From assembly GCA_035570235.1 (NCBI GenBank), contig DATMML010000123.1, forward strand, positions 1 through 64,000: a stretch of 64,000 bases of DNA, read 5' to 3'. Both the position numbers and the translations under genes were made by a program. The notes under the pieces were generated by a model. That model had not been told where the DNA came from. It saw nothing but the letters and a program-made list of their open reading frames with translations, and did no database searches. Below are positions 10,102-21,788 of the stretch, piece after piece. How positions within the stretch are numbered: position 1 is the first letter of the stretch; each line of letters begins with the position of its first letter. Source of the DNA: Vicinamibacteria bacterium. Its GTDB lineage: Bacteria > Acidobacteriota > Vicinamibacteria > Fen-336.

Positions 10102-11103
10102 CTACCATGGGCCGGCCTTCTTGGCGGCATCGATCCTCTCGTTGTTTCCCTCGTAGGAGAGCGGTCCAGGCATACCTTCCGGCGGGTAGAGGTGCCGCCG
10201 GTAGACGGGATAGGCCTCCGTCCGCAGGTGGGCGAGCATGTGGTGGCCGCGCCGAGTGGCCCGCTCGTGCCGCAGCGCGGAGATGTCGATGGGCGCCACC
10301 ACGATCCGCTCGCCGGGGCCGGGAGAGGCCTGGGCGAGCAGGCGGCCGTCGAAGTCGACGATCTGGCTCCCCCCCGGCCAGGAGTAAGGCGGGTAGCGCT
10401 TGAGGCTCGCCCCCTGGTTAGCGGCCACCACGTAGGCCATGTTCTCGAGGGCCCGGCAGCGGTTAACGATCGTCCACCAGTCCATGGGGTCGGTGGCCCC
10501 CCAGGGATCCATGTAGGCGGAGACGCGCAGGAGCACCTCCGCCCCGTTGGCGGCGAGCTGGCGGATCGCCTCCGGGAAGATCCAGTCGTAGCAGATGGCG
10601 CAGCCGATGCGGCCCAGCGGCGTCTCCGCCACCGGGAAGAGGGGCTCCGGAAAGTCGGGCACGTCGTGGGGGCTCGCGTGGACCTCGTAGGGGATCCAGG
10701 GGTTCACCTTGCGGTACTTGTAGAGGATCCCTTCCGGCCCGATGAGGCAGGTGGTGTTGAAGACCAGGTCCGGCCAGCGCGGGTCGGCTTCGATCATGGA
10801 GCCGCTCTGAACGTAGATCCCATACTCGCGCGCCTTCCCGTGGAGCCGCTCCGTGTGCTCGTTCGGCACCCGCACGGCCAGCTTCTCGATCAGCTCCCGG
10901 AGGGTGGGATAGACGGGGGCGGCGTGGGCGAACTCCGGGAACACCACCAGCCGCACGGGCAGGAAGGGCGCGCTCCCCGCCACCGCGGAGTCGATCATGG
11001 AGAGCATGCGGTCGGTGTTGGCCTTCATCTCGAGCCGGCCGATGGGATTCGGGAGGTCGGTCTGGCAGGCGGCGGCCGCGTAGCGAATGAGCTCCATGTT
11101 CAC
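10102..11103 (-). CDS. Carbon-nitrogen hydrolase (nitrilase/amidase superfamily)
   Basis: 333 aa. The Glu-Lys-Cys triad of the superfamily is visible: E57 in VFPEF, K132 in YKYRKVNP, and nucleophile C171 in CAICYDWIFPE. A conserved structural Glu lies in RALENMAYV. These cytoplasmic enzymes hydrolyse amides or nitriles; the aliphatic amidase/N-carbamoyl amide hydrolase types look closest, but the substrate cannot be told from sequence. There is no signal peptide. The start is GTG 11103, with GTGA overlapping the stop of the 1159-aa TPR/FG-GAP gene; ATG 11097 is an alternative. Its presence as the only soluble metabolic enzyme in the exported TPR/CRTAC1 block is unexplained. Confidence 0.88.
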   Translation of the reverse strand: MNMELIRYAAAACQTDLPNPIGRLEMKANTDRMLSMIDSAVAGSAPFLPVRLVVFPEFAHAAPVYPTLRELIEKLAVRVPNEHTERLHGKAREYGIYVQSGSMIEADPRWPDLVFNTTCLIGPEGILYKYRKVNPWIPYEVHASPHDVPDFPEPLFPVAETPLGRIGCAICYDWIFPEAIRQLAANGAEVLLRVSAYMDPWGATDPMDWWTIVNRCRALENMAYVVAANQGASLKRYPPYSWPGGSQIVDFDGRLLAQASPGPGERIVVAPIDISALRHERATRRGHHMLAHLRTEAYPVYRRHLYPPEGMPGPLSYEGNNERIDAAKKAGPW

Positions 11104-14100
11104 TTCTCCTGCGCGGCGGAGGCCAGCTCGAGGGGCACGAGGGGCCGCGCCACCACCCGCGTGTTGAAGGTCTCCGCGCGCTCCGCCTGCCGGCGCACAC
11201 GGGCGGGGGCCTCGGACGGCGGGTAGGGGTAGCTCTTCATGCCGTGGAAGGGCAGGGGCAGGACCACGTCCGGGCTCGCGGAGTTGATGTCCATCTCCTT
11301 GCTGAAGCCGTCGCCGTGGAGGAGGAAGGTGCGGGTCCAGCCCGCGGGCAGGGGGGGCAGGGCCCGGGCGTCGAAGGAGAGCGCGATCTCGTCCCCCGGT
11401 CGCGCGACCACGAAGAGGTCGTCGGAGGCGGCCAGGAGCTCCCGCACGTCACCCTCCCGGGTGTAGCGGCCGGGCATGACCTTCCAGGGCGAGGAAGCAA
11501 AGACGCGCGTGTAGTCGTAGATGAAGGGCTGATGGCCGTCGGGCGAGACCTCCGCCGAGTAGCCGCGCGCGCGCAGCTCGGCCCGCACAGGCTCGAGGGG
11601 GGTGGGGGCCAGAGGCACGTCCGGCGCGGGGGTGCCCAGGAGCACTTGGTCCCAGTAGACGCGCATGTTGGTGAGGATGCGGAGCCGGCGCGACGGGCCC
11701 CTCCACTTTCCCTTGAGGTCCACCACCATCGTCTGCGGCCGGCCCACGGGGATCCCGAGGTCCTCGATCACGGTCTGCCATGCCCCCTCCGCGTCCTGGA
11801 CCTGGAGGGAGGGCGGCCGCAGGCTCAGGCCCGCCTGGTGGGCGGCCAGGTTGTCGCTCGAAAAGGCGTAGTCCGTCCAGCCCGTGAGGAGCAGCGCGGT
11901 CGCGGAGGGGGGCAGGCCGGCGAGGTCCAGAACGAGGCCGTGCTCCTCGGCGTAGCCGCGGATGGGAAGGAGGGCGAACGCGTCGGGGTACGTGCGGTCC
12001 AGGCGGGCGATGCGCGCGCGCACGTCGTGCCCCTGGTCGTCGCTGGCCCCCGGGGGCGGCTCCGGACCGCGAACCGCGAAGAGCCGGAAGGGCTTCGGGG
12101 GGTCAGTCATGCCCTCGTTGGGGAAGACGGACACGTCCGGGGGATGGGCCAAAACCAGGAGCTGCACGTGATCCAGGTACAGCACCTCCTCCAGCTCGTT
12201 GGTGATGCGCAGCTCGTAGCGTCCGTCCTTGGGCCGGAGCTGGTCGCCCCGGATCCGAACGTACTCCTCGGGGTAAGGCCGGTTGCGCTGGCCGGGGGCC
12301 TCCCAGTAGCCCATCTCCCCCCCGCCCAGGAAGTCGGTGACGAACTCGAAGCGCTCGCCGTTCCAGGCGTAGAGGAACGGGCAAGACGAGGGTTTGCGGT
12401 CCAGCTCCTCGATGCTCAAGGCGGTCCGCGCCGCCGCCCCCGGCGGCAGCTCCGTCTGCACGATCCCCGAGGCCCAGATCACGCGCACGGCGTCGGGCCC
12501 CGCCCGCGGGCCCAGCCCGAAGAGGACGTCGGCGGGGGCCACGGCGGGCGTGGCCGCCGAGGTCTCGATCCTCTGCCGGAGGCTGCCCGCCCGCAGCTCG
12601 ACCTTGGCCCCCACCCCCCCCCGGTTGCTCACCCGGCCCGCGAGCCGGACGGGAAGCGAGTGGTTCTTGTTCCCGCCCTCGTTCCGCCAGAGCCGTAGAC
12701 CGCTCTCGGGGGTGGCCACCACCACATCCTCGTCGCCGTCGGCGTCCAGGTCGGCGAGGGCGAGCGCGGCCCCCTCCGTCAAGGCCCCCCCCTCCGGGAA
12801 GGCGCGCGCGCTGACGTCCGTGAAGGCCCCCCCCGTGTTGCGGAAGAGACGGAGCCCGCGGGGGGTGGCCACCAGCAGGTCCAGCAGGCCGTCGTTGTCG
12901 TAGTCCACGAATTGGGCGGCCATGGCCCCCGCCGTCTCCGGGGGCGCGGGCTTCAGGGTGAAGCCCGCGCGGCCGTCGCTCAGGGCGAGAAGGCCGGGGC
13001 CGGAAGCGGTCCCGAAGAAGAAATCGGTGAAGCCGTCCTTGTTGACATCGGCCGCGGCCACGCTCCGGAAGGGGCCGTCGCCGGTCTTGAGCCCCACCTC
13101 CGCGGCCACATCCTGGAAGGAGCCGTCGCGCAGGTTCTTGAACAGGCGGGGGGGGGCATCCTCGTAAAGGAACAGGAGATCGACGTCCCGATGGTTGTCG
13201 AAGTCGGTGGGTACGATGGCGATGGCGTGTCCCACCGCACCCACCCGGGCCGCGTCCGTGATGTCGGTGAAGGTGCCGTTCCCGTTGTTCCGGAAGAGGC
13301 GGTTGGGCGCGGGCGCGAAGTCCTTCGGGAAGACGAGCGCGCGCTCGCCTTGGCCCCGGGCGGTGGCGGCGAGGTCGGCCAGCCCGGCCACGACGATGTC
13401 CAGGTCGCCGTCGTGGTCCACGTCAACGAAGGCGGCGCTCACGCTCAGATAAGGATAGGCGGGGATCCCGGCCTTGACGGTCTGGTCGGAGAAGCGGCCC
13501 GCGCCGTCGTTGTGATAGAGGGCGAGGCGCCCGGGGCGCAGCACGAGGAGATCGACCCGGCCGTCGTTGTCGTAATCCCCCGCCACCGCTCCCAGAGCAG
13601 GTCCCGCCTCGAGGCCGGAGGCGGCGGTCACGTCCCGGAACCGTCCCCCCTCGTTATGCAACAGCCGCAATCCGGAGGGCCCGGCCACGACCAGATCCAG
13701 GGCCCCGTCGCCGTCGTAGTCGAAGAGGGTGATCGAGGCCCGCGTTCCCCCGCTCGCGGCGGCCAGCGCCTCTTGCCCGCGGACGCTCCGGCCCAGGGCC
13801 AGGGCGGGAGGGGCACCGGCGGGAAGGGCGGGCAGGCCCCCCGCGGTGGCGTCGACAAACGCGACCTCCGGCGGCCGCGCGTCCACGAGGTCGGCTTCGG
13901 CGCCCGTGGAAGCGATGGCCTCCGCATACCGCCCCTGCTCCAGATAGCTCTGTCCGAACGAGGTGTGGGCGGGATTCTCGCGCAGCTCCTGGAAGCGGGC
14001 GGTGGCGCGGGCCCCCTCCTCCCGGCGGCCCGCCCGGGTCAGGGCCACGCCCAGGTTGTACTGGGCGCTCGCGTTGTAGGGCTCCACCGCGGTGGCGGCC

Positions 14101-14579
14101 CGGAAGCAGGCGATGGCTTCGTCGTACCGCCGCTGCTGCAGGTAAACCTGGCCCAAGGTCAGGTTGGCGCCCACGTCCTGGGGATCCACGGCCAGGACCC
14201 GCAGGAGGCTGGACACCGCGTCCTCCGCACGGTTCTCCATGCGCGCGATGAGGCCCAGGATGTAGGGGGGCTGGAGGGCGGCCGGCTGGTCCGCCGCCGC
14301 TTCCTCCGCGGCCGCCCGCGCGCCCGGGAGATCGGGGACGTAGAAGAGGGCGATGGCCAGGTTGATTCGGGCGAGGCCGAGCTTGGGATCGAGGGCGAGC
14401 GATCGCCGGAAGGCCGCGGCCGCCTCCGCAGGGCGGAACTGCTCGAGGAGGGCCACGCCCAGGTTGCTCGCGCGGTAAGCGGCTTCCCGGTCCGGGGGGG
14501 GCGTGGGATCGGCCGCGCCCAGGGGGATAAGGGGCGCGGCCGAGGCAAGAAGCAGCAGCGTCCATCGCTTCAGGGTCAT
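11100..14579 (-). CDS. TPR + FG-GAP + ASPIC/UnbV fusion protein with extra C-terminal domain
   Basis: 1159 aa, exported (signal peptide in residues 1-22). Order: TPRs at about 35-210 (AAYRASNLGVALLEQFRPAEA onward); FG-GAP/VCBS repeats with D-x-D-x-D-G loops at about 255-630; ASPIC/UnbV at about 640-710 (VRLAGRVSNRGGVGAK); then about 430 residues beginning SCPFLYAWNGERFEFVTDFL, a segment seen C-terminal to other TPR/ASPIC proteins whose role is unknown to me. It joins in one chain the two parts that are separate, overlapping genes elsewhere in this block, good evidence that the TPR and CRTAC1 products act together. It is 31 nt downstream of another CRTAC1 gene and overlaps the C-N hydrolase gene by 4 nt. 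Confidence 0.9.
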   Translation of the reverse strand: MTLKRWTLLLLASAAPLIPLGAADPTPPPDREAAYRASNLGVALLEQFRPAEAAAAFRRSLALDPKLGLARINLAIALFYVPDLPGARAAAEEAAADQPAALQPPYILGLIARMENRAEDAVSSLLRVLAVDPQDVGANLTLGQVYLQQRRYDEAIACFRAATAVEPYNASAQYNLGVALTRAGRREEGARATARFQELRENPAHTSFGQSYLEQGRYAEAIASTGAEADLVDARPPEVAFVDATAGGLPALPAGAPPALALGRSVRGQEALAAASGGTRASITLFDYDGDGALDLVVAGPSGLRLLHNEGGRFRDVTAASGLEAGPALGAVAGDYDNDGRVDLLVLRPGRLALYHNDGAGRFSDQTVKAGIPAYPYLSVSAAFVDVDHDGDLDIVVAGLADLAATARGQGERALVFPKDFAPAPNRLFRNNGNGTFTDITDAARVGAVGHAIAIVPTDFDNHRDVDLLFLYEDAPPRLFKNLRDGSFQDVAAEVGLKTGDGPFRSVAAADVNKDGFTDFFFGTASGPGLLALSDGRAGFTLKPAPPETAGAMAAQFVDYDNDGLLDLLVATPRGLRLFRNTGGAFTDVSARAFPEGGALTEGAALALADLDADGDEDVVVATPESGLRLWRNEGGNKNHSLPVRLAGRVSNRGGVGAKVELRAGSLRQRIETSAATPAVAPADVLFGLGPRAGPDAVRVIWASGIVQTELPPGAAARTALSIEELDRKPSSCPFLYAWNGERFEFVTDFLGGGEMGYWEAPGQRNRPYPEEYVRIRGDQLRPKDGRYELRITNELEEVLYLDHVQLLVLAHPPDVSVFPNEGMTDPPKPFRLFAVRGPEPPPGASDDQGHDVRARIARLDRTYPDAFALLPIRGYAEEHGLVLDLAGLPPSATALLLTGWTDYAFSSDNLAAHQAGLSLRPPSLQVQDAEGAWQTVIEDLGIPVGRPQTMVVDLKGKWRGPSRRLRILTNMRVYWDQVLLGTPAPDVPLAPTPLEPVRAELRARGYSAEVSPDGHQPFIYDYTRVFASSPWKVMPGRYTREGDVRELLAASDDLFVVARPGDEIALSFDARALPPLPAGWTRTFLLHGDGFSKEMDINSASPDVVLPLPFHGMKSYPYPPSEAPARVRRQAERAETFNTRVVARPLVPLELASAAQEK

Positions 14580-14610
14580 AGCCCGATTTTCGTGGAGAAC
14601 GGCCGGGGGC

Positions 14611-16329
14611 TCAAGGCTTGGCGGCTGGACGCTTTCCGGCCAGGGGCGAGGCCGAGGCCAGCCCCTTGCCTTCTTGCACCGTCACCGTCTGGTTGGCGGC
14701 CACGGGCCCCAGTCGATCCACCTGGCCGCTCGGCCAGACCACCTCCACGTTGTCCGCTTTGGCCAGGTCGCCCAAGCCGAAGGTGAGGGTGAGCTCGCTC
14801 TGGGAGCAGTAGCTGGAGCCCGTGTGCACGAGCCGCCAGGGGTGGGCGCCGCCGGCCAGGGTGAGGGTCACCTTGGCCCCGATGCCGTCCCGGTTGGACT
14901 TGGTCCCCACCGTCCTCACCCGCAAGACGTTGTTCCGGTTGCCCCCGTCATTGCGCAGGAGGTAGGGAGGGCCGTTGTTGGTTGAGATCAGCACGTCCAG
15001 GTCGCCGTCGTGGTCGATGTCCGCGTAGGCGGCCCCGCGGCCCACGATGGGCCGGGACAGGGCCGGGCCCAGCTTCGGCGCCACCTCCTCGAAGCGTCGC
15101 TCGCCCAGGTTGCGGAAGAGGTGGGGGGCCTGGGCGTAGGTGACCTTGGGCTGGACCACGTTGATGTCGTCGGCCACGTGGCCGTTGGCGGCGAAGATGT
15201 CGAGCCGCCCGTCCAGGTCGTAATCGAAGAAGAAAGCGCCGAAGCTCAGGGTCAGGAGGGAGGCCCGGCCCACGGTGGAGGTGGGGGCCTCGTCGATGAA
15301 GAGCCCGTTCCCCTCGTTGTGGTAGAGACCCATCATCTCGTTGGAGAAGTTGCCGATCACGAGGCTGGGGCGGCCGCTGCCCGAATAGTCGGCGGCATCC
15401 ACGCCCATCCCCGCGCGGGCCACGCCCGTCTCGCCGAAGGCCACTCCCGCCGCCACCGCCACGTCCGTGAAGGTGCCGTTGCCGTTGTTCCGATAGAGCT
15501 TGTTGGGCTGGGTGTCGTTGGCCACGAACACGTCGGGCCAGCCGTCGCCGTCTACGTCGAGCAGCGTCAGCCCCAACGACTTTGCCGACGGTTGCAGGAG
15601 CCCGGCCTTGGCGGTGACGTCCTCGAAGGTGCCGTCTCCCCGGTTGCGGTAGAGGGTCACGCTTTGTCCCTTGTACGACTCCGGCGTGCAGTAGGACTTG
15701 GTCTTGCCGTCGAGGGTGCAGAAGAGGTCTTTTTCGATCGACCAGTCGACATAGTTGGCGACGAGGAGGTCCAGCCAGCCGTCCCGGTCATAGTCGAAGA
15801 ACATGGCGCTCGTGGAGAAGCCGCCGTTCGCCACCCCCGCCTTGGCCGTGACCTCGGTGAAGGTGCCGTTCCCGTTGTTCCGGAAGAGGCGGTTGCCGCC
15901 GAGGCCGGTCACGTAGAGGTCTGGCCAGCCGTCGTTGTCGTAGTCGGCGGCGGTCGCCCCCATGCCGTACATCTCGACCGCGAGGCCGGCCGCCTTCGTC
16001 ACGTCGGTGAAGGTCCCGTCATGGTTGTTGCGGTATAGGGCGGGATAGGAGGCGGGCCCGGGGTGGCCGGGCCAGTTCTTGGAATTCACGAGGAAGATGT
16101 CTGGCCAGCCGTCGTTGTCGTAGTCGAAGAAGAGGCAGCCCGCGCCCATGGTCTCGGGCAGGTACTTCTTGCCGAAGGCGCCGCTGTTGTGCTTGAAGGT
16201 GATCTTGGCGGCCCCGGTAACGTCCGTGAACTGCAGGGGGGGAATCTGGGCCGAGGAGCGGCCGTCGCGGAGCGCGAGCGCGGCCGCGAGGACACCCAGG
16301 CCGAGGATGAGGCGCCGGGTGGCCCTCAC
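14611..16329 (-). CDS. Secreted CRTAC1 family protein (FG-GAP/VCBS + ASPIC/UnbV)
   Basis: 572 aa from GTG 16329. The open frame runs further upstream, but those codons are antisense to the cytochrome gene. The chosen GTG forms a GTGA overlap with the cytochrome stop and opens a proper signal peptide (LILGLGVLAAALAL, cut near SSAQ). The mature protein starts with FTDVTGAAKITFKHNSG, the usual CRTAC1 opening, followed by many DYDNDGWPD loops. The ASPIC/UnbV domain lies at about 485-550 (RVRTVGTKSNRDGIGAK, then EVVWPSGQ). Direct translational coupling to a multiheme cytochrome suggests a shared place in the cell envelope. Confidence 0.9.
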   Translation of the reverse strand: MRATRRLILGLGVLAAALALRDGRSSAQIPPLQFTDVTGAAKITFKHNSGAFGKKYLPETMGAGCLFFDYDNDGWPDIFLVNSKNWPGHPGPASYPALYRNNHDGTFTDVTKAAGLAVEMYGMGATAADYDNDGWPDLYVTGLGGNRLFRNNGNGTFTEVTAKAGVANGGFSTSAMFFDYDRDGWLDLLVANYVDWSIEKDLFCTLDGKTKSYCTPESYKGQSVTLYRNRGDGTFEDVTAKAGLLQPSAKSLGLTLLDVDGDGWPDVFVANDTQPNKLYRNNGNGTFTDVAVAAGVAFGETGVARAGMGVDAADYSGSGRPSLVIGNFSNEMMGLYHNEGNGLFIDEAPTSTVGRASLLTLSFGAFFFDYDLDGRLDIFAANGHVADDINVVQPKVTYAQAPHLFRNLGERRFEEVAPKLGPALSRPIVGRGAAYADIDHDGDLDVLISTNNGPPYLLRNDGGNRNNVLRVRTVGTKSNRDGIGAKVTLTLAGGAHPWRLVHTGSSYCSQSELTLTFGLGDLAKADNVEVVWPSGQVDRLGPVAANQTVTVQEGKGLASASPLAGKRPAAKP

Positions 16330-19193
16330 TTCCCGCCCCTGGCCGCGTCCGCGGTGCGCGAAGGCGGGCGAAGGGGATAGGAGGACGGCGCGGGACGCGG
16401 AGCCGCCGAGCCGTGCTCGTGAATCTGCTGGCGCTCGTTGTTGTCCTCGGGATGGAGCTGTCGATAGGGTCCGGTGATGAACTGCGCCGACTCGTCCGCC
16501 TTGAAGCGCTGGTAGAGCGCCTCCTCCTTCTTGGCCATGGTCGCGTCTCCCAATCCTTGATAACACAGCATGAGGTTGTAGTGGGCCTGCAGATCCTCGG
16601 GGTCGATGGCGAGGACCTTCTGAAACTCGGCGATGGCCTCCCCATACCGCCGCTTGAGGAAGAGCACCCGCCCGGACTGGTTCCGCACCACCCGGTCGCG
16701 GGGGTACTGCGCGCCCGCCGCCTGCAGGTGCCCAAGGGCCTCGTCATAGCGCCCCAGAGCTTTCAGAACGGTGCCGAGGAAAAAATGGGTCTTGGCCAGA
16801 CCGGGGTCCACGGCCAGGGCCTTTCGCAGGATCTCCTCCGCCCCTGCCATGTTCCCCTCCTGCACCCGCGCCCGCCCGACGTTCACCCAGCCGTCTGCGT
16901 ACTCCGGCTCCATCTCCGTGACGCCGAGGAAGGCCGCTTCCGCGCCCTTGATGTCCCCCTGCAGGAGCAGGCCGATGCCGTAGTCGTTCCAGCGCTCGCG
17001 CACGGAGCGGTCGAGGAGGGGCTTCATCGCCGGGGGGGGCGCGTTCCGGGGCAGGATCCGAAGGGAGGCCTCGGCGGAGGCCATCACGGTGATGGGGATG
17101 TCGGGGATGGCCTTGATCTGCCCGGACACCTGGGCGGTGTCGCCAGTGAAGAGCCAGCGTCCGTCGTCGTGACTAGGGGTGAGGGAGAAGGCGGGCTGGG
17201 CCGGGTCGCGCACCCCCGCGAACGACCAGTGGGTGTTCCACCAGGAGAACTTGCGGTAGTTCACCCGGGCCTTCAGGGTGACGCGGTCCCCGCAATCGTC
17301 GGGAATCCGCAGCCGGTAGTGGACGGTGTCGGCCGCCCCCGGCGGGATGAGGCGCACGTAGGCCACCGACCGCGCCATCCAGGCATTGCGCTTGTTGATA
17401 GGGTGGCCGTGCTCGTCGAGGAGCAGGCTGCGGTAGAAGTGCGCCCCCGGCTCTACCGGGCCGCCCTCCTCCATCAGGCCGCTGTGGAAGATCGTCTTTC
17501 CGTTGCTGTCCACGGCCTCAAGCTCCACCCACACGTCGGGGGCATCCACCGTCCCGCCCGGGAAGAAGTGGCCCACCTTGCGCGTGCGCACCACCACTTC
17601 CACGCGGGCGGAGTCCCCGCGGCGAAGGGCGGGATCCACCTTGTCGAGGGGCGCGATGACGGGGGCGGGCGCGGCCAGAACCGCGCGGGGAGCGCCCGCG
17701 TTCAGGGACTCCTCCCCCACCGCGAAGGTGCTGGCCAGGCGCGGCTCCCCCCCGGCCACGCTCCGCTCCTCCCCCTTCTCCGGCCCCGTCCCCGCCACCA
17801 GACCGAAGACATCGACCGTGATCTGTTTGTCGCGCAGGAAGTCCTGGGTGACCTTGAGCTGGTCCTGGTCTCGGTTTACGAAGGGCAGGGCGGTGTTGGC
17901 GGCGGGGAAACGGTGGGAGTGTACCTGCCCCTCGCGGGCGGCGGGGTCGTGGCTGGCCACGAGGGGCATGTGGCAGTCCGCGCACTTCTGGGGCCGGGCC
18001 GGATAGTAGAACGACCGCGCCCCCTCCCCGGAGATCCCGGAAGCCTGCCAATTGTCGTACTCGTTGAAGCCCCGGAACCAGCGGTAGGCGTTCACGGGAA
18101 CGTCCAGGTGCACCTTGTGGCAGGAGGAGCAGAACTCCGGCGTCTGGCGGGTGTGGAAGCTCTTCAAGAAGGTCTGCCGGTGCGGCCGGGGATCGAGCTT
18201 GAGCAGGTAGTCGTGGCCCCAGGCCAGAACCGGGTTCTCGCTCACCGCGAGGTCGTGCAGGGGCGGGTACTCGATCGTGAAGTCGCCCTGGCCCATCGTG
18301 CTCTTGACGTGCACGATGGAGTGGCAAGACGTGCAGCCAAGGCCGTTTTGCGCCTCAGCGGTGTCGATCTGGGACCGGATGGGCCGGTCGAAGCGGCCGT
18401 TGAAGAAGACGGCATGGTCATGGCAGCCCGCGCACCATTTCGAGGGCGTGGTGCCGGTTACGTCCTGCATGTACTCGATGGACTTCCGGTACCACTGGTT
18501 GTTGAAGGAAGAGAAATGGTGGGCGGAGGAGTTCCACTGGTCGTAGATGTCCTGGTGGCAGCGGCCGCAGGTCTTGCTGGTCATGAAGAAGTTGGCAGGG
18601 ATGATGCCCTTGGTGTTGGTCTCCGCCGAAGAGGGGAAGAACGGGCTCCCCGTTCCCGCGCCCTCCCCCTCCATGGAAAGAGGCGGCAGGGCGGGGTTGA
18701 TGATGGGGCGGAGGGGCTGAGGATCACGGTCGGAATGGAGGCGGGCGAAAGGAGCCGCCACCAGGGCCAGGCAGGCGCCGGCGACCATGGCCTGGTTCGC
18801 GTCGAGGGCCCGGGGGCTGCCCGCCGCCCGCCCCAGCACGTGCGCGAGCGTGAGAAGCGCGGCCAGACCCGCGCTGCCGATATGGGCATAGAGCGCCCAG
18901 CGGTACGGCCGGGTGGCTCCGAAGATCATCAAGAACACGCCGAGCGCGACGGCGGCTCCCAGGCAGAGGGCGGCCGCCTTCAGGAGCGGACCGAGGACCG
19001 AAAAGCGGCTCCGGAGGAGCGGCACGAGCGCGGCCGTGACCGCGAGGCCGAGGACCACGTGAAGCACGATGTTGCTGAAATAGAAGAGCGTGGGGTCGCT
19101 GCGCGCGGCCAGATAGGCACTGTTCAGGCCCAGGGCGAGGCAGCCCACGGCCAGCCACCGCTCGCGTCGCACGGCGTCCCAGGTGTCCGCCAT
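16326..19193 (-). CDS. Membrane-anchored pentaheme c-type cytochrome with C-terminal TPR domain
   Basis: 955 aa. Residues 13-150 contain four or five hydrophobic helices (a membrane domain). Residues about 205-410 carry five CxxCH heme-c motifs: C209 (CGRCH), C254 (CAGCH), C287 (CTSCH), C355 (CSSCH), C404 (CADCH), plus scattered His that may be distal ligands. This resembles multiheme cytochromes of the cytochrome c554/NrfB-like fold. A beta-rich region follows, then TPRs at about 760-910 (YADGWVNVGRARVQEGNMAGA, split here for length). It probably moves electrons on the outer face of the membrane; donor and acceptor are unknown. It is the first gene of the minus-strand block, ATG 19193 preceded by GGGGAGGAG. 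Its product and the next CRTAC1 protein are translationally coupled (4-nt overlap). Confidence 0.9.
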   Translation of the reverse strand: MADTWDAVRRERWLAVGCLALGLNSAYLAARSDPTLFYFSNIVLHVVLGLAVTAALVPLLRSRFSVLGPLLKAAALCLGAAVALGVFLMIFGATRPYRWALYAHIGSAGLAALLTLAHVLGRAAGSPRALDANQAMVAGACLALVAAPFARLHSDRDPQPLRPIINPALPPLSMEGEGAGTGSPFFPSSAETNTKGIIPANFFMTSKTCGRCHQDIYDQWNSSAHHFSSFNNQWYRKSIEYMQDVTGTTPSKWCAGCHDHAVFFNGRFDRPIRSQIDTAEAQNGLGCTSCHSIVHVKSTMGQGDFTIEYPPLHDLAVSENPVLAWGHDYLLKLDPRPHRQTFLKSFHTRQTPEFCSSCHKVHLDVPVNAYRWFRGFNEYDNWQASGISGEGARSFYYPARPQKCADCHMPLVASHDPAAREGQVHSHRFPAANTALPFVNRDQDQLKVTQDFLRDKQITVDVFGLVAGTGPEKGEERSVAGGEPRLASTFAVGEESLNAGAPRAVLAAPAPVIAPLDKVDPALRRGDSARVEVVVRTRKVGHFFPGGTVDAPDVWVELEAVDSNGKTIFHSGLMEEGGPVEPGAHFYRSLLLDEHGHPINKRNAWMARSVAYVRLIPPGAADTVHYRLRIPDDCGDRVTLKARVNYRKFSWWNTHWSFAGVRDPAQPAFSLTPSHDDGRWLFTGDTAQVSGQIKAIPDIPITVMASAEASLRILPRNAPPPAMKPLLDRSVRERWNDYGIGLLLQGDIKGAEAAFLGVTEMEPEYADGWVNVGRARVQEGNMAGAEEILRKALAVDPGLAKTHFFLGTVLKALGRYDEALGHLQAAGAQYPRDRVVRNQSGRVLFLKRRYGEAIAEFQKVLAIDPEDLQAHYNLMLCYQGLGDATMAKKEEALYQRFKADESAQFITGPYRQLHPEDNNERQQIHEHGSAAPRPAPSSYPLRPPSRTADAARGGK

Positions 19194-19439
19194 CGCTCCT
19201 CCCCGCCTGATCCTAGTCCGGTCCCGGGTGCTTGGGTACGCCCGGGGACGCCAAGCGGGAAAGCAATTCCCCTTCCAGGCTCGGCGCGAGGTCCTCGGGG
19301 GTGGGCCGCCCCGGGGCAGGCGCTTCTGCGGGAGCAGGTTACGCCATCGGAGAGGCAGCGCCTGGGCTAGGCCCGGAGGGGCGGCCGCCGTATTCCTAAG
19401 CGCGGGTGACCATAGGTTCTACGGGCGTGCGCGGATGTC

Positions 19440-19453
19440 CCCCTGGCCAGGGG
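19440..19453. repeat. 14-bp perfect palindrome before the selenoprotein start codon
   Basis: CCCCTGGCCAGGGG is a perfect palindrome lying 8 nt before the ATG at 19462, in the region between the divergent cytochrome operon and the selenoprotein gene. It could be an operator. In RNA the CCCC and GGGG arms could pair across a 6-nt loop and cover the G-rich ribosome-binding region. If translation begins instead at the in-frame ATG 19435, the palindrome is coding. Confidence 0.35.
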
Positions 19454-19461
19454 CGGTTATC

Positions 19462-20625
19462 ATGGGGGCCGTGGAGATTGTCACGAAGGCCAAGGACGAC
19501 CCTCCTGCCGGGGATGGCTGGATAAGGATGATCGGCGTGGCCGCGGCCGAGGGGGAGCTGAAGGACGTGTACGCCCGCTTGCGCGCGGGCGGGGGGGAGC
19601 GTCCCGCGGTTTACACGCCCCCCACGGGGGAGGTGGCGAACATCGTCAAGTCGCACAGCCTCGACCCGGAAGGGCTGGGGCTGGCCTTCGGAATGAGCGC
19701 GGCCATTCACTGGAGCCCGCGCTCGCTCCCCTGGGCTACGCGGGAGATGATCAACACCGTCACCTCCTCCGCCAACAACTGCTTCTATTGAGTGACGGCT
19801 CACGCAGAGTTTCTGCGTGCCGCCACGGACGACGAGCCGCTTGCCCGCCGGATGAAGGCGGACTTCCGCCAGGCCGGGCTGTCCGCCCGTGACCGCGCGA
19901 TGCTGGAGTACGTGGACACGCTCAGCCACACCCCCTGGGCTCTCAACCCGGCGGGGGTGGACGGACTTCGGCGGGCGGACTTCCGGGAAGAGGAGATCCT
20001 GCACGTGGTCTTGGGCTGCGCCCACTTCAACTACCTCAACCGCATGGCGGACGGGCTCGGCATCCGGTTCGAGTACGAGAGCGCGCTGCCCCCCTTCCGG
20101 CCGCGAGAGAGGGGCCCCCGGCCCGCGCCGCCTCCGCCCCTGGCCGAGCCGAGCAGGGATTCTCCGGAGGACGAACCGGGCGCTTTCTACCGCATCCTTG
20201 GCGGTAACCCGGAAGCGTGCGCGCTGGCGTCGCAGTGGCGGGCTTTCCAGCTCCGGCCCACCCCGGGCCTGGAGGCGGTGACGCGGGTCCGAGTCGCCCT
20301 CTTCGTGTCCAGCCTGGACCGCTGCCCCACCGGCTACCGATCCTACCGGCGGAGCCTGGCCCGGCTGGGCGACGACGCCGCCGTCGCCGAGGCCCTGAAC
20401 CGCGGCCAGGTCCCCCCTGGATTGCCCCCCCGGGAGCGCCTTCTCCTGGAACACGCCGCGCGCCTCACCGAGATGCCCTGGACAACCCGCGCGGAGCACC
20501 TCGACACGCTCCGCTCCGCGGGACTCGACGACCGGGGCATCCTAAAGCTCACGATGCTCGTCAGCTATTTGAGCTTCGAGAGCCGGGTGGCCCTGGGTCT
20601 CGGGGCGGGCCGGAGCGAGCTCTGA
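19462..20625 (+). CDS. AhpD-like (CMD / peroxidase-related) selenoprotein with in-frame UGA (Sec110)
   Basis: Read as one 387-residue protein in which TGA at 19789-19791 encodes selenocysteine. The frame is open on both sides of this single TGA. Residues 101-114 (TSSANNCFY-U-VTAH) match the AhpD/peroxidase-related active site N-x-C-x-x-C-x-x-x-H with Sec110 in place of the second, peroxide-reacting Cys; C107 is the resolving Cys and H114 the conserved His. Helices downstream (ARDRAMLEYVDTLSHTPW, ILHVVLGCAHFNYLNRM) continue the fold. A second AhpD-like domain (about 240-380) repeats the layout but has only C288 (CPTG). An 8-bp hairpin lies 9 nt after the TGA. ATG 19462 is the likely start, ATG 19435 an alternative. 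Known AhpD-like selenoproteins are thiol-dependent peroxidases; that role is inferred. Without Sec insertion the product would be a useless 109-aa fragment. Confidence 0.85.
19801..19819 (+). promoter_or_regulatory. Bacterial SECIS-like hairpin for UGA recoding
   Basis: CACGCAGA (19801-19808) pairs perfectly with TCTGCGTG (19812-19819) around a GTT loop; an extra GGC/GCC pairing outside it is possible after a small internal loop. Nine nt separate the TGA (19789-19791) from the stem and 17 nt separate it from the loop. Bacterial SECIS elements lie in the coding region just after the UGA and have a small apical loop with a G in its first positions, which bind SelB. Position, stem and loop G all fit. 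The stem lies inside codons for HAEFLRAA. Confidence 0.75.
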
Positions 20626-20671: not shown

Positions 20672-21709
20672 TCAGCCCGCGCGGTCCGTGGAGAACTTGT
20701 AGACGGTGGTGGTCTCGTACTTCTGACCGGGCTTGAGCCGCGTGCTCGGGAACTCCGGCTGGTTGGGAGAGTCCGGGAAGTGCTGGGTCTCGAGGCAGAA
20801 TCCGGAGCGCCCGAGGTAGCGCTTCCCGGCCTTGCCGACCGGGGACCCCTTAAGGCCGTTCCCGGAGTAGAACTGCAGCCCCGGCTCGGAGGTGAGCACC
20901 TCCAGCACCCGGCCGCGGCGGGGCTCCCACACCGAAGCCGCGCGGCGGAGCGTGCCCGCTTGGCCGTTCAGGACGAAATTGTGATCGTAGCCTCGTCCGA
21001 GGGCCAGCTGCGGATCGTCGACCCCGATGCGGGCCCCGATCGCCATCGGCTTCCTGAAGTCCAGGGGGGTGCCGGCCACGGGGGCGAGGACGCCGGTAGG
21101 AATGAGGCCGGGCCCCACGGGAGTGTAGCGGTCGGCCTCGATCGTCAACTCGTGATCGAGGATGTCCCCCTCCCCCTCTCCGGCCAGGTTGAAGTAGGGG
21201 TGGCTGGTGAGGTTCAAGACGGTATCCTTATTGGTGACGGCCTCGTAGCGGATCCAGAGCTCGCTGGCCTCGCTCAGCGTGTAGAGCACAGTCACGGCGA
21301 GGTCCCCCGGATAGCCCTCCTCGCCGTCCCGGCTCGCGTAGGTCAGACGCACGCCAGGACCCTCAGCGGTCCGGACCGCTTGGGATGCCCAGCGGACCCG
21401 CCCAAAGCCCCGGAGCCCGCCGTGCAGATGGTTCTCTCCGTCGTTGACGGAGAGACGGTGCTCCACGCCCTCGAGCGTGAAGCGTCCCTTGGCGATGCGG
21501 TTCGCGTAGCGGCCCACGATGCCTCCGAAGGCGGGGCCCGCTAGCGCATAGTCGCCCTCGGAGTCGAAGCCGAGCACGACGTCGGCCACGTGGCCGCGGC
21601 GATCAGGAACGCGCAGGGAGCGGATGACCCCGCCCAGTTCGCCGATCGTGACCTCGGCTCCAGCCGCGTTTGTCAGGGTGTGCGGAGGTCCGGGCGGCCC
21701 GCTCGGCAT
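20672..21709 (-). CDS. galM: Aldose 1-epimerase (galactose mutarotase)
   Basis: 345 aa from ATG 21709, which has AGGAGG 11 nt upstream; a GTG at 21721 is in frame but sits directly on that ribosome-binding site. Interconverts alpha and beta anomers of galactose, glucose or related sugars. Family landmarks are present: GRYANRIAKGRF, NHLHGG with a catalytic His, TSHPYFNLAG with the second catalytic His, YDHNFVLN, and the C-terminal Glu region CLETQHFPDSPN. No signal peptide is seen, so it is cytoplasmic. It ends the GH42 / sugar ABC transporter operon, where it would turn newly imported or released beta-galactose into the alpha form for catabolism. Confidence 0.93.
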   Translation of the reverse strand: MPSGPPGPPHTLTNAAGAEVTIGELGGVIRSLRVPDRRGHVADVVLGFDSEGDYALAGPAFGGIVGRYANRIAKGRFTLEGVEHRLSVNDGENHLHGGLRGFGRVRWASQAVRTAEGPGVRLTYASRDGEEGYPGDLAVTVLYTLSEASELWIRYEAVTNKDTVLNLTSHPYFNLAGEGEGDILDHELTIEADRYTPVGPGLIPTGVLAPVAGTPLDFRKPMAIGARIGVDDPQLALGRGYDHNFVLNGQAGTLRRAASVWEPRRGRVLEVLTSEPGLQFYSGNGLKGSPVGKAGKRYLGRSGFCLETQHFPDSPNQPEFPSTRLKPGQKYETTTVYKFSTDRAG

Positions 21710-21788
21710 CTTGGCCAACACCTCCTCCCCCCCGGGCCCTACGCTCCCTGTTCGGGGCCAGGCGTCCCGCCCGACTCCCCCTCCGCGG

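Follow-up and report, generated by a model that had tools for sequence, protein, structure and literature searches.

The second cysteine of the CxxC active site is the more reactive one in AhpD proteins. In Mycobacterium tuberculosis AhpD and in PA0269, the active site forms a relay of the order Glu, Cys, His/Tyr, Cys, His, represented in PA0269 by Glu36, Cys48, Tyr50, Cys51 and His55, and AhpD proteins assemble into dimers, trimers or hexamers (PMC3141380). AhpD-like selenoproteins with a CxxU site have been described under the family model TIGR01926 (PMC13188914) and as families in the Sargasso Sea and GOS selenoproteomes (PMC1088965, PMC2398784). Sestrins (SESN2; PF04636) contain two AhpD folds per chain with the catalytic site in the N-terminal domain and none in the C-terminal one, where a DDYDY motif on an electronegative hinge replaces the active-site helix (PMC11429811). 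Bacterial fused AhpD proteins from Corynebacterium ureicelerivorans, Comamonas aquatica and Rokubacteria (a CMD protein) have been named sestrin analogues (PMC11429811).

Here, we describe a gene in a 64,000-nucleotide stretch of DNA from a soil-type Vicinamibacteria bacterium (the window) that combines features of these systems (Table 1). Like the known CxxU proteins, its product matches TIGR01926, places Sec at the second position of CxxU and has a predicted bacterial SECIS element directly 3′ of the codon. The Sec domain is thus a member of an already described selenoprotein family, as the sequence-only reading had anticipated, and this part is not new. In contrast to the examined relatives, which are single-domain proteins of about 190-200 amino acids, the window protein carries a fused second CMD domain. 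This tandem architecture with a dead C-terminal domain is new and has been seen once. In all probability, the protein is a Sec-dependent AhpD-type peroxidase or thiol-disulfide reductase in which the C-terminal pseudo-domain fills the place that the second subunit has in a homodimer.

Table 1. Features of the selenoprotein locus and its neighbours (window coordinates)
Feature	Position	Strand	Basis or remark
Selenoprotein gene, whole	19462-20625	+	387 aa with TGA110 as Sec; start codon unsure
N-terminal catalytic AhpD/peroxidase-related domain	19513-20094 (residues about 18-211)	+	TIGR01926, alignment, model
Sec TGA codon, second position of CxxU	19789-19791	+	same column TGA in 60 homologous domains of the phylum
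Predicted bacterial SECIS hairpin	19792-19826	+	upper stem 7 bp, 19802-19808 with 19812-19818
Proline-rich interdomain linker	20095-20166	+	sequence
C-terminal degenerate CMD/AhpD domain	20167-20622 (residues about 236-387)	+	TIGR01926, TIGR04029, model, PDB matches
Multihaem-cytochrome/TPR-type gene, divergent	16326-19193	-	named by reading the translation
Aldose-1-epimerase-like gene, convergent	20672-21721	-	named by reading the translation

The predicted Sec codon and the N-terminal active site

Between the ATG at 19462 and the TGA at 20623-20625, codon 110 is the sole in-frame stop, and translation of this TGA as Sec yields the motif NNCFYUVTAH within 387 residues. This bears out the earlier claim that a single TGA falls on the second Cys of a CxxC site, giving CFYU followed by VTAH. 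Similarity to the AhpD/peroxidase-related fold had also been claimed for both sides of the codon, and the profile matches do run through it. The whole protein scored 149.6 bits against TIGR01926 (NCBIfam, peroxidase-related enzyme; E 8e-44, curated cut-off 81.8 bits) with a best stretch at residues 54-202 spanning the TGA, the N-terminal domain alone still exceeded the cut-off with 98 bits, and the Pfam CMD match (E 1e-11) likewise continues through the TGA. Among solved structures, the nearest matches are single-domain proteins of the peroxidase-related or AhpD type, and in both of those shown as alignments the TGA corresponds to the second Cys of CxxC. All five residues of the proton-relay set are present in the N-terminal domain (E95, C107, Y109, U110 and H114) with the same spacing as in PA0269. 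E95, C/U110 and H114 are among the invariant alignment columns, and C107 is nearly so. In most relatives, the protein starts near residue 18-20 of the 387-residue reading, and residues 1-17 have low model confidence.

Matches were found in 66 of 396 genomes of the phylum, the window's own included, and in 30 of 193 genomes of the class; nearly all contain an in-frame TGA. Among the extracted domains, 61 (60 single-domain homologues and the window domain) show C-x-x-U, their TGA falling on one and the same column, where the remaining four have Cys. Every aligned homologue thus carries either Cys or TGA at position 110, the column that the sequence-only reading had singled out for comparison. 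In the tree, the N-terminal domain of the window protein lies inside the Sec clade (marked set of 27 rows: 24 Sec, 2 Cys and the window domain itself). Two close relatives from the same class (L042 and L074) read NRTRYC and NRTPYC. They have Cys instead of Sec and have lost the first Cys of the pair, which may reflect a change of mechanism within the Sec clade.

The selenoprotein gene is solitary, flanked by a divergent gene on one side and a convergent gene on the other. Three long genes lie in a row on the minus strand at 11100-19193. Judged by eye, they encode two FG-GAP/ASPIC-type repeat proteins, one of them with TPR-like repeats, and a TPR/multihaem CxxCH cytochrome-like protein.

The downstream hairpin and the Sec machinery

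A SECIS-like stem had been proposed to follow the TGA, and folding confirmed a hairpin at this place. Its 7-bp stem (ACGCAGA-GUU-UCUGCGU) is nested in a longer one, and the apical loop GUU (19809-19811) starts with a G that is separated from the UGA by 17 nt. The 36 nt from 19792 to 19827 fold with -20 kcal/mol, a value reached by only 1 of 200 dinucleotide shuffles (z -3.9), and longer stretches around the hairpin gave z-scores of -2.5 to -1.5. Judged by its sequence, the predicted element, whose apical loop contains a G, is a plausible fit to a bacterial SECIS.

In most relatives, too, a hairpin lies at this distance from the UGA. When all of them were pooled the test was blurred by about a dozen sequences with their best hairpin in another register, and base pairs were therefore counted only in 27 gap-free sequences of the common register. 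In this set, 85.7% of the pairing cells were filled as compared to 79.2% in shuffled and 31-50% in slid alignments, one stem pair was switched from G-C to C-G in 9 sequences, cells with changes on both sides numbered 12 versus 6.3 in shuffles, and the covariation score was 0.22 versus 0.14. Pairs changed on both sides showed no excess in these sequences (2 pairs; 409 of 500 shuffles as high). As the 27 sequences were picked for their register, a choice that favours structure, and are also constrained by coding, the pair statistics are support rather than proof. In 13 relatives (L029, L032, L076-L079, L083, L085, L087 and L089-L092) the best hairpin is shifted by about 7 nt with its loop near +25, which suggests that the family uses two SECIS registers.

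The genome from which the window comes (5.7 Mb, 99.6% complete) was searched for selA, selB, selC and selD, to which the sequence-only reading had pointed as a check, and all four were found above their cut-offs: selA with 524, selB with 342 and selD with 353 bits, and a tRNA-Sec with anticodon TCA (UCA) with 71 bits. The selD gene itself has an in-frame UGA (L018:1531-1533, contig C103) in the motif SCAGUASKLG (CAGU), so that SelD of this organism is predicted to be a selenoprotein. The genome also contains 16 AhpC/TSA-family matches. Among those with one TGA, which include two matches on C103 and C94, three peroxiredoxin-family genes were read (L104, L106 and L110 on contigs C80, C51 and C10), and their UGA lies at the active site in the contexts TAGU, TPGU and TPGU, respectively. 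Together with the Sec machinery, the UGA sites of SelD and the peroxiredoxins give good support for Sec use in this genome without recourse to the selenoprotein gene of the window.

The interpretation of codon 110 as Sec at an AhpD site thus gains support from the Cys/TGA column, the Sec machinery and a plausible SECIS element, and Sec insertion is predicted on these grounds. If the TGA instead were a real stop, arisen by nonsense mutation or marking a translational end, the locus would be a pseudogene or two separate ORFs, and annotation with table 11 indeed splits it into 19183-19791 and 19792-20625. However, the N-terminal ORF would then finish within the active-site helix hairpin, homologous domains share the TGA column, and a predicted SECIS element and Sec machinery exist. 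Moreover, homology and coding signal persist on both sides: GC by codon position is alike before and after the TGA and matches the neighbouring genes, with a GC3 of 0.89 before, 0.90 after and 0.89 in the C-terminal domain compared to 0.87-0.94 in the neighbours, and stretches of 277 codons stayed open in only 2.4% of cases when bases were shuffled within codon positions. We consider termination at this codon extremely improbable. Hardly more credible is a sequencing error that turned TGC or TGT of an ordinary Cys-type AhpD into TGA. Cys does occupy this column in homologues of solved structure as well as in four aligned relatives, but TGA is also present in the closest relatives within the phylum, and the Sec-requiring hairpin fits the window copy especially well.

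The second domain and its comparison with sestrins

The sequence-only reading had proposed a further domain behind the Sec domain. This domain is real and proved to be a degenerate second AhpD (CMD) domain. It matches TIGR01926 (E 8e-13) and TIGR04029 (E 6e-12), although a Pfam search with the C-terminal domain alone gave no match, and it resembles AhpD-like proteins of the PDB by sequence and by fold (3c1l, TM 0.85). Its model is of high confidence (pLDDT 91). The active site reads C288-P-T-G291...Y295 (CPTG..Y) in place of CxxC/U..H, and as the relay Glu is also missing, four of the five relay residues are gone and only Cys288 is kept. There is no ATG, GTG or TTG in frame from 20047 to 20277, which rules out separate translation from an ordinary start codon, and the C-terminal domain should therefore be produced solely by reading on from the N-terminal one.

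Relatives from about 560 genomes contained no other tandem; in every extracted relative the next stop or TGA follows within about 80 residues of the domain, and no match in the searches besides the window protein itself extended past query residue 292. A scan of genome contigs with the whole protein returned one weak relative only, and a plasmid collection yielded no match covering 80% of the query, its best matches including single-domain peroxidase-related enzymes. The fused form was found only in the genome of the window, a single case that gives no comparative support for its maintenance.

The full-length AlphaFold model had a mean pLDDT of 82 and a pTM of 0.84; two of the five models were clearly lower (mean pLDDT 69), and since homologous rows were available for the N-terminal domain only, domain packing reflects AlphaFold without alignment depth for the C-terminal domain. 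Over both domains the model matched human Sestrin2 (5dj4_E; Z 28.1, rmsd 3.1 Å, 300 residues), as compared to Z-scores of about 18 for single AhpD chains. Both proteins have two AhpD folds per chain and a catalytic site only in the N-terminal domain, and residues C125, Y127 and H132 of SESN2 (PMC11429811) have the same spacing as 107, 109 and 114 of the window protein. Nevertheless, identity is about 15%, and the window protein keeps the CxxU pair. It is not a sestrin, because the DDYDY motif is absent, the active-site helix hairpin of the C-terminal domain is kept in the model (helices 272-285 and 292-301), unlike the sestrin hinge, and the score against Pfam PF04636 (PA26) is 18.5 bits, below the gathering score of 29.4. 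The bacterial fused AhpD proteins share the tandem folds, and those of C. ureicelerivorans and Comamonas aquatica also share a domain without cysteines; there, the dead domain is N-terminal, whereas it is C-terminal in the window protein (PMC11429811). Moreover, these proteins were described with cysteines (PMC11429811), and the window protein is predicted to use Sec.

Proposed function and related architectures

We propose that SelB, tRNA-Sec and the hairpin that directly follows the codon together decode UGA110 as Sec. Sec110 would then stand where AhpD proteins have the reactive second Cys of CxxC; Cys107 would be the resolving thiol, and protons would be relayed by Glu95, Tyr109 and His114. 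The likely reaction is reduction of a peroxide or disulfide via a Sec-Cys selenenylsulfide, and targets may be alkyl or lipid hydroperoxides or a peroxiredoxin partner, which could be among the 16 AhpC/TSA-family proteins. Peroxidase activity is a prediction in this scheme. As in sestrins, the dead C-terminal domain would be a built-in pseudo-partner packed onto the Sec domain, and it most simply stands in for one subunit of a dimer, which implies a structural rather than a sensing role.

Alternatively, the C-terminal domain could be a sensory or ligand-binding domain, comparable to the leucine-binding SESN-C, and control the Sec peroxidase domain. The whole-length structural match is to leucine-bound Sestrin2, and the domain is catalytically lost yet predicted to fold well. 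As the DDYDY hinge motif is absent and the model keeps the very helix hairpin that sestrins swapped for the hinge (PMC11429811), we find such control quite unlikely. The wider proposal that a fused pseudo-AhpD sensor in sestrin architecture controls the peroxidase domain, an independent, selenium-based parallel to the origin of sestrins, appears very unlikely. As to how the tandem arose, TIGR01926 matches both domains, as expected if one ancestral gene had been duplicated within the lineage. However, the two domains are only about 26% identical, and the tree groups the N-terminal one with the Sec clade and the C-terminal one nearest to two Cys-type single-domain proteins, on a very long branch of unsure placement. 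Duplication therefore seems unlikely compared to fusion of distinct AhpD-family members.

With the window protein, a known selenoprotein family gains a tandem, sestrin-ordered architecture, in which a predicted peroxide-detoxifying Sec enzyme joined to a dead copy of its fold resembles the sestrins, stress proteins of animals. The locus provides a bacterial case, in sestrin domain order, for asking why one of two fused AhpD domains loses its active site. As judged from their frequency, Sec-AhpD genes are common in the phylum, although standard gene calling would break them in two or cut them short.

An AhpD-type CFYU motif and a long extra region are also found in NF041238 (AhpD-related CFYUT (seleno)protein, about 357 aa), which occurs in 12 of 297 genomes of the phylum with one TGA each. 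The window protein scored 47.1 bits in this equivalog test, below the cut-off of 175, and pairwise similarity covers the Sec region only (31% over 86 columns). Unlike the window protein, NF041238 proteins carry Sec in the C-terminal half (U237 of 349 in L097 from genome G066). The N-terminal half of L097 contains, by eye, a CMD-like RCDHC stretch, and this protein may be a second tandem Sec-AhpD with the opposite domain order.
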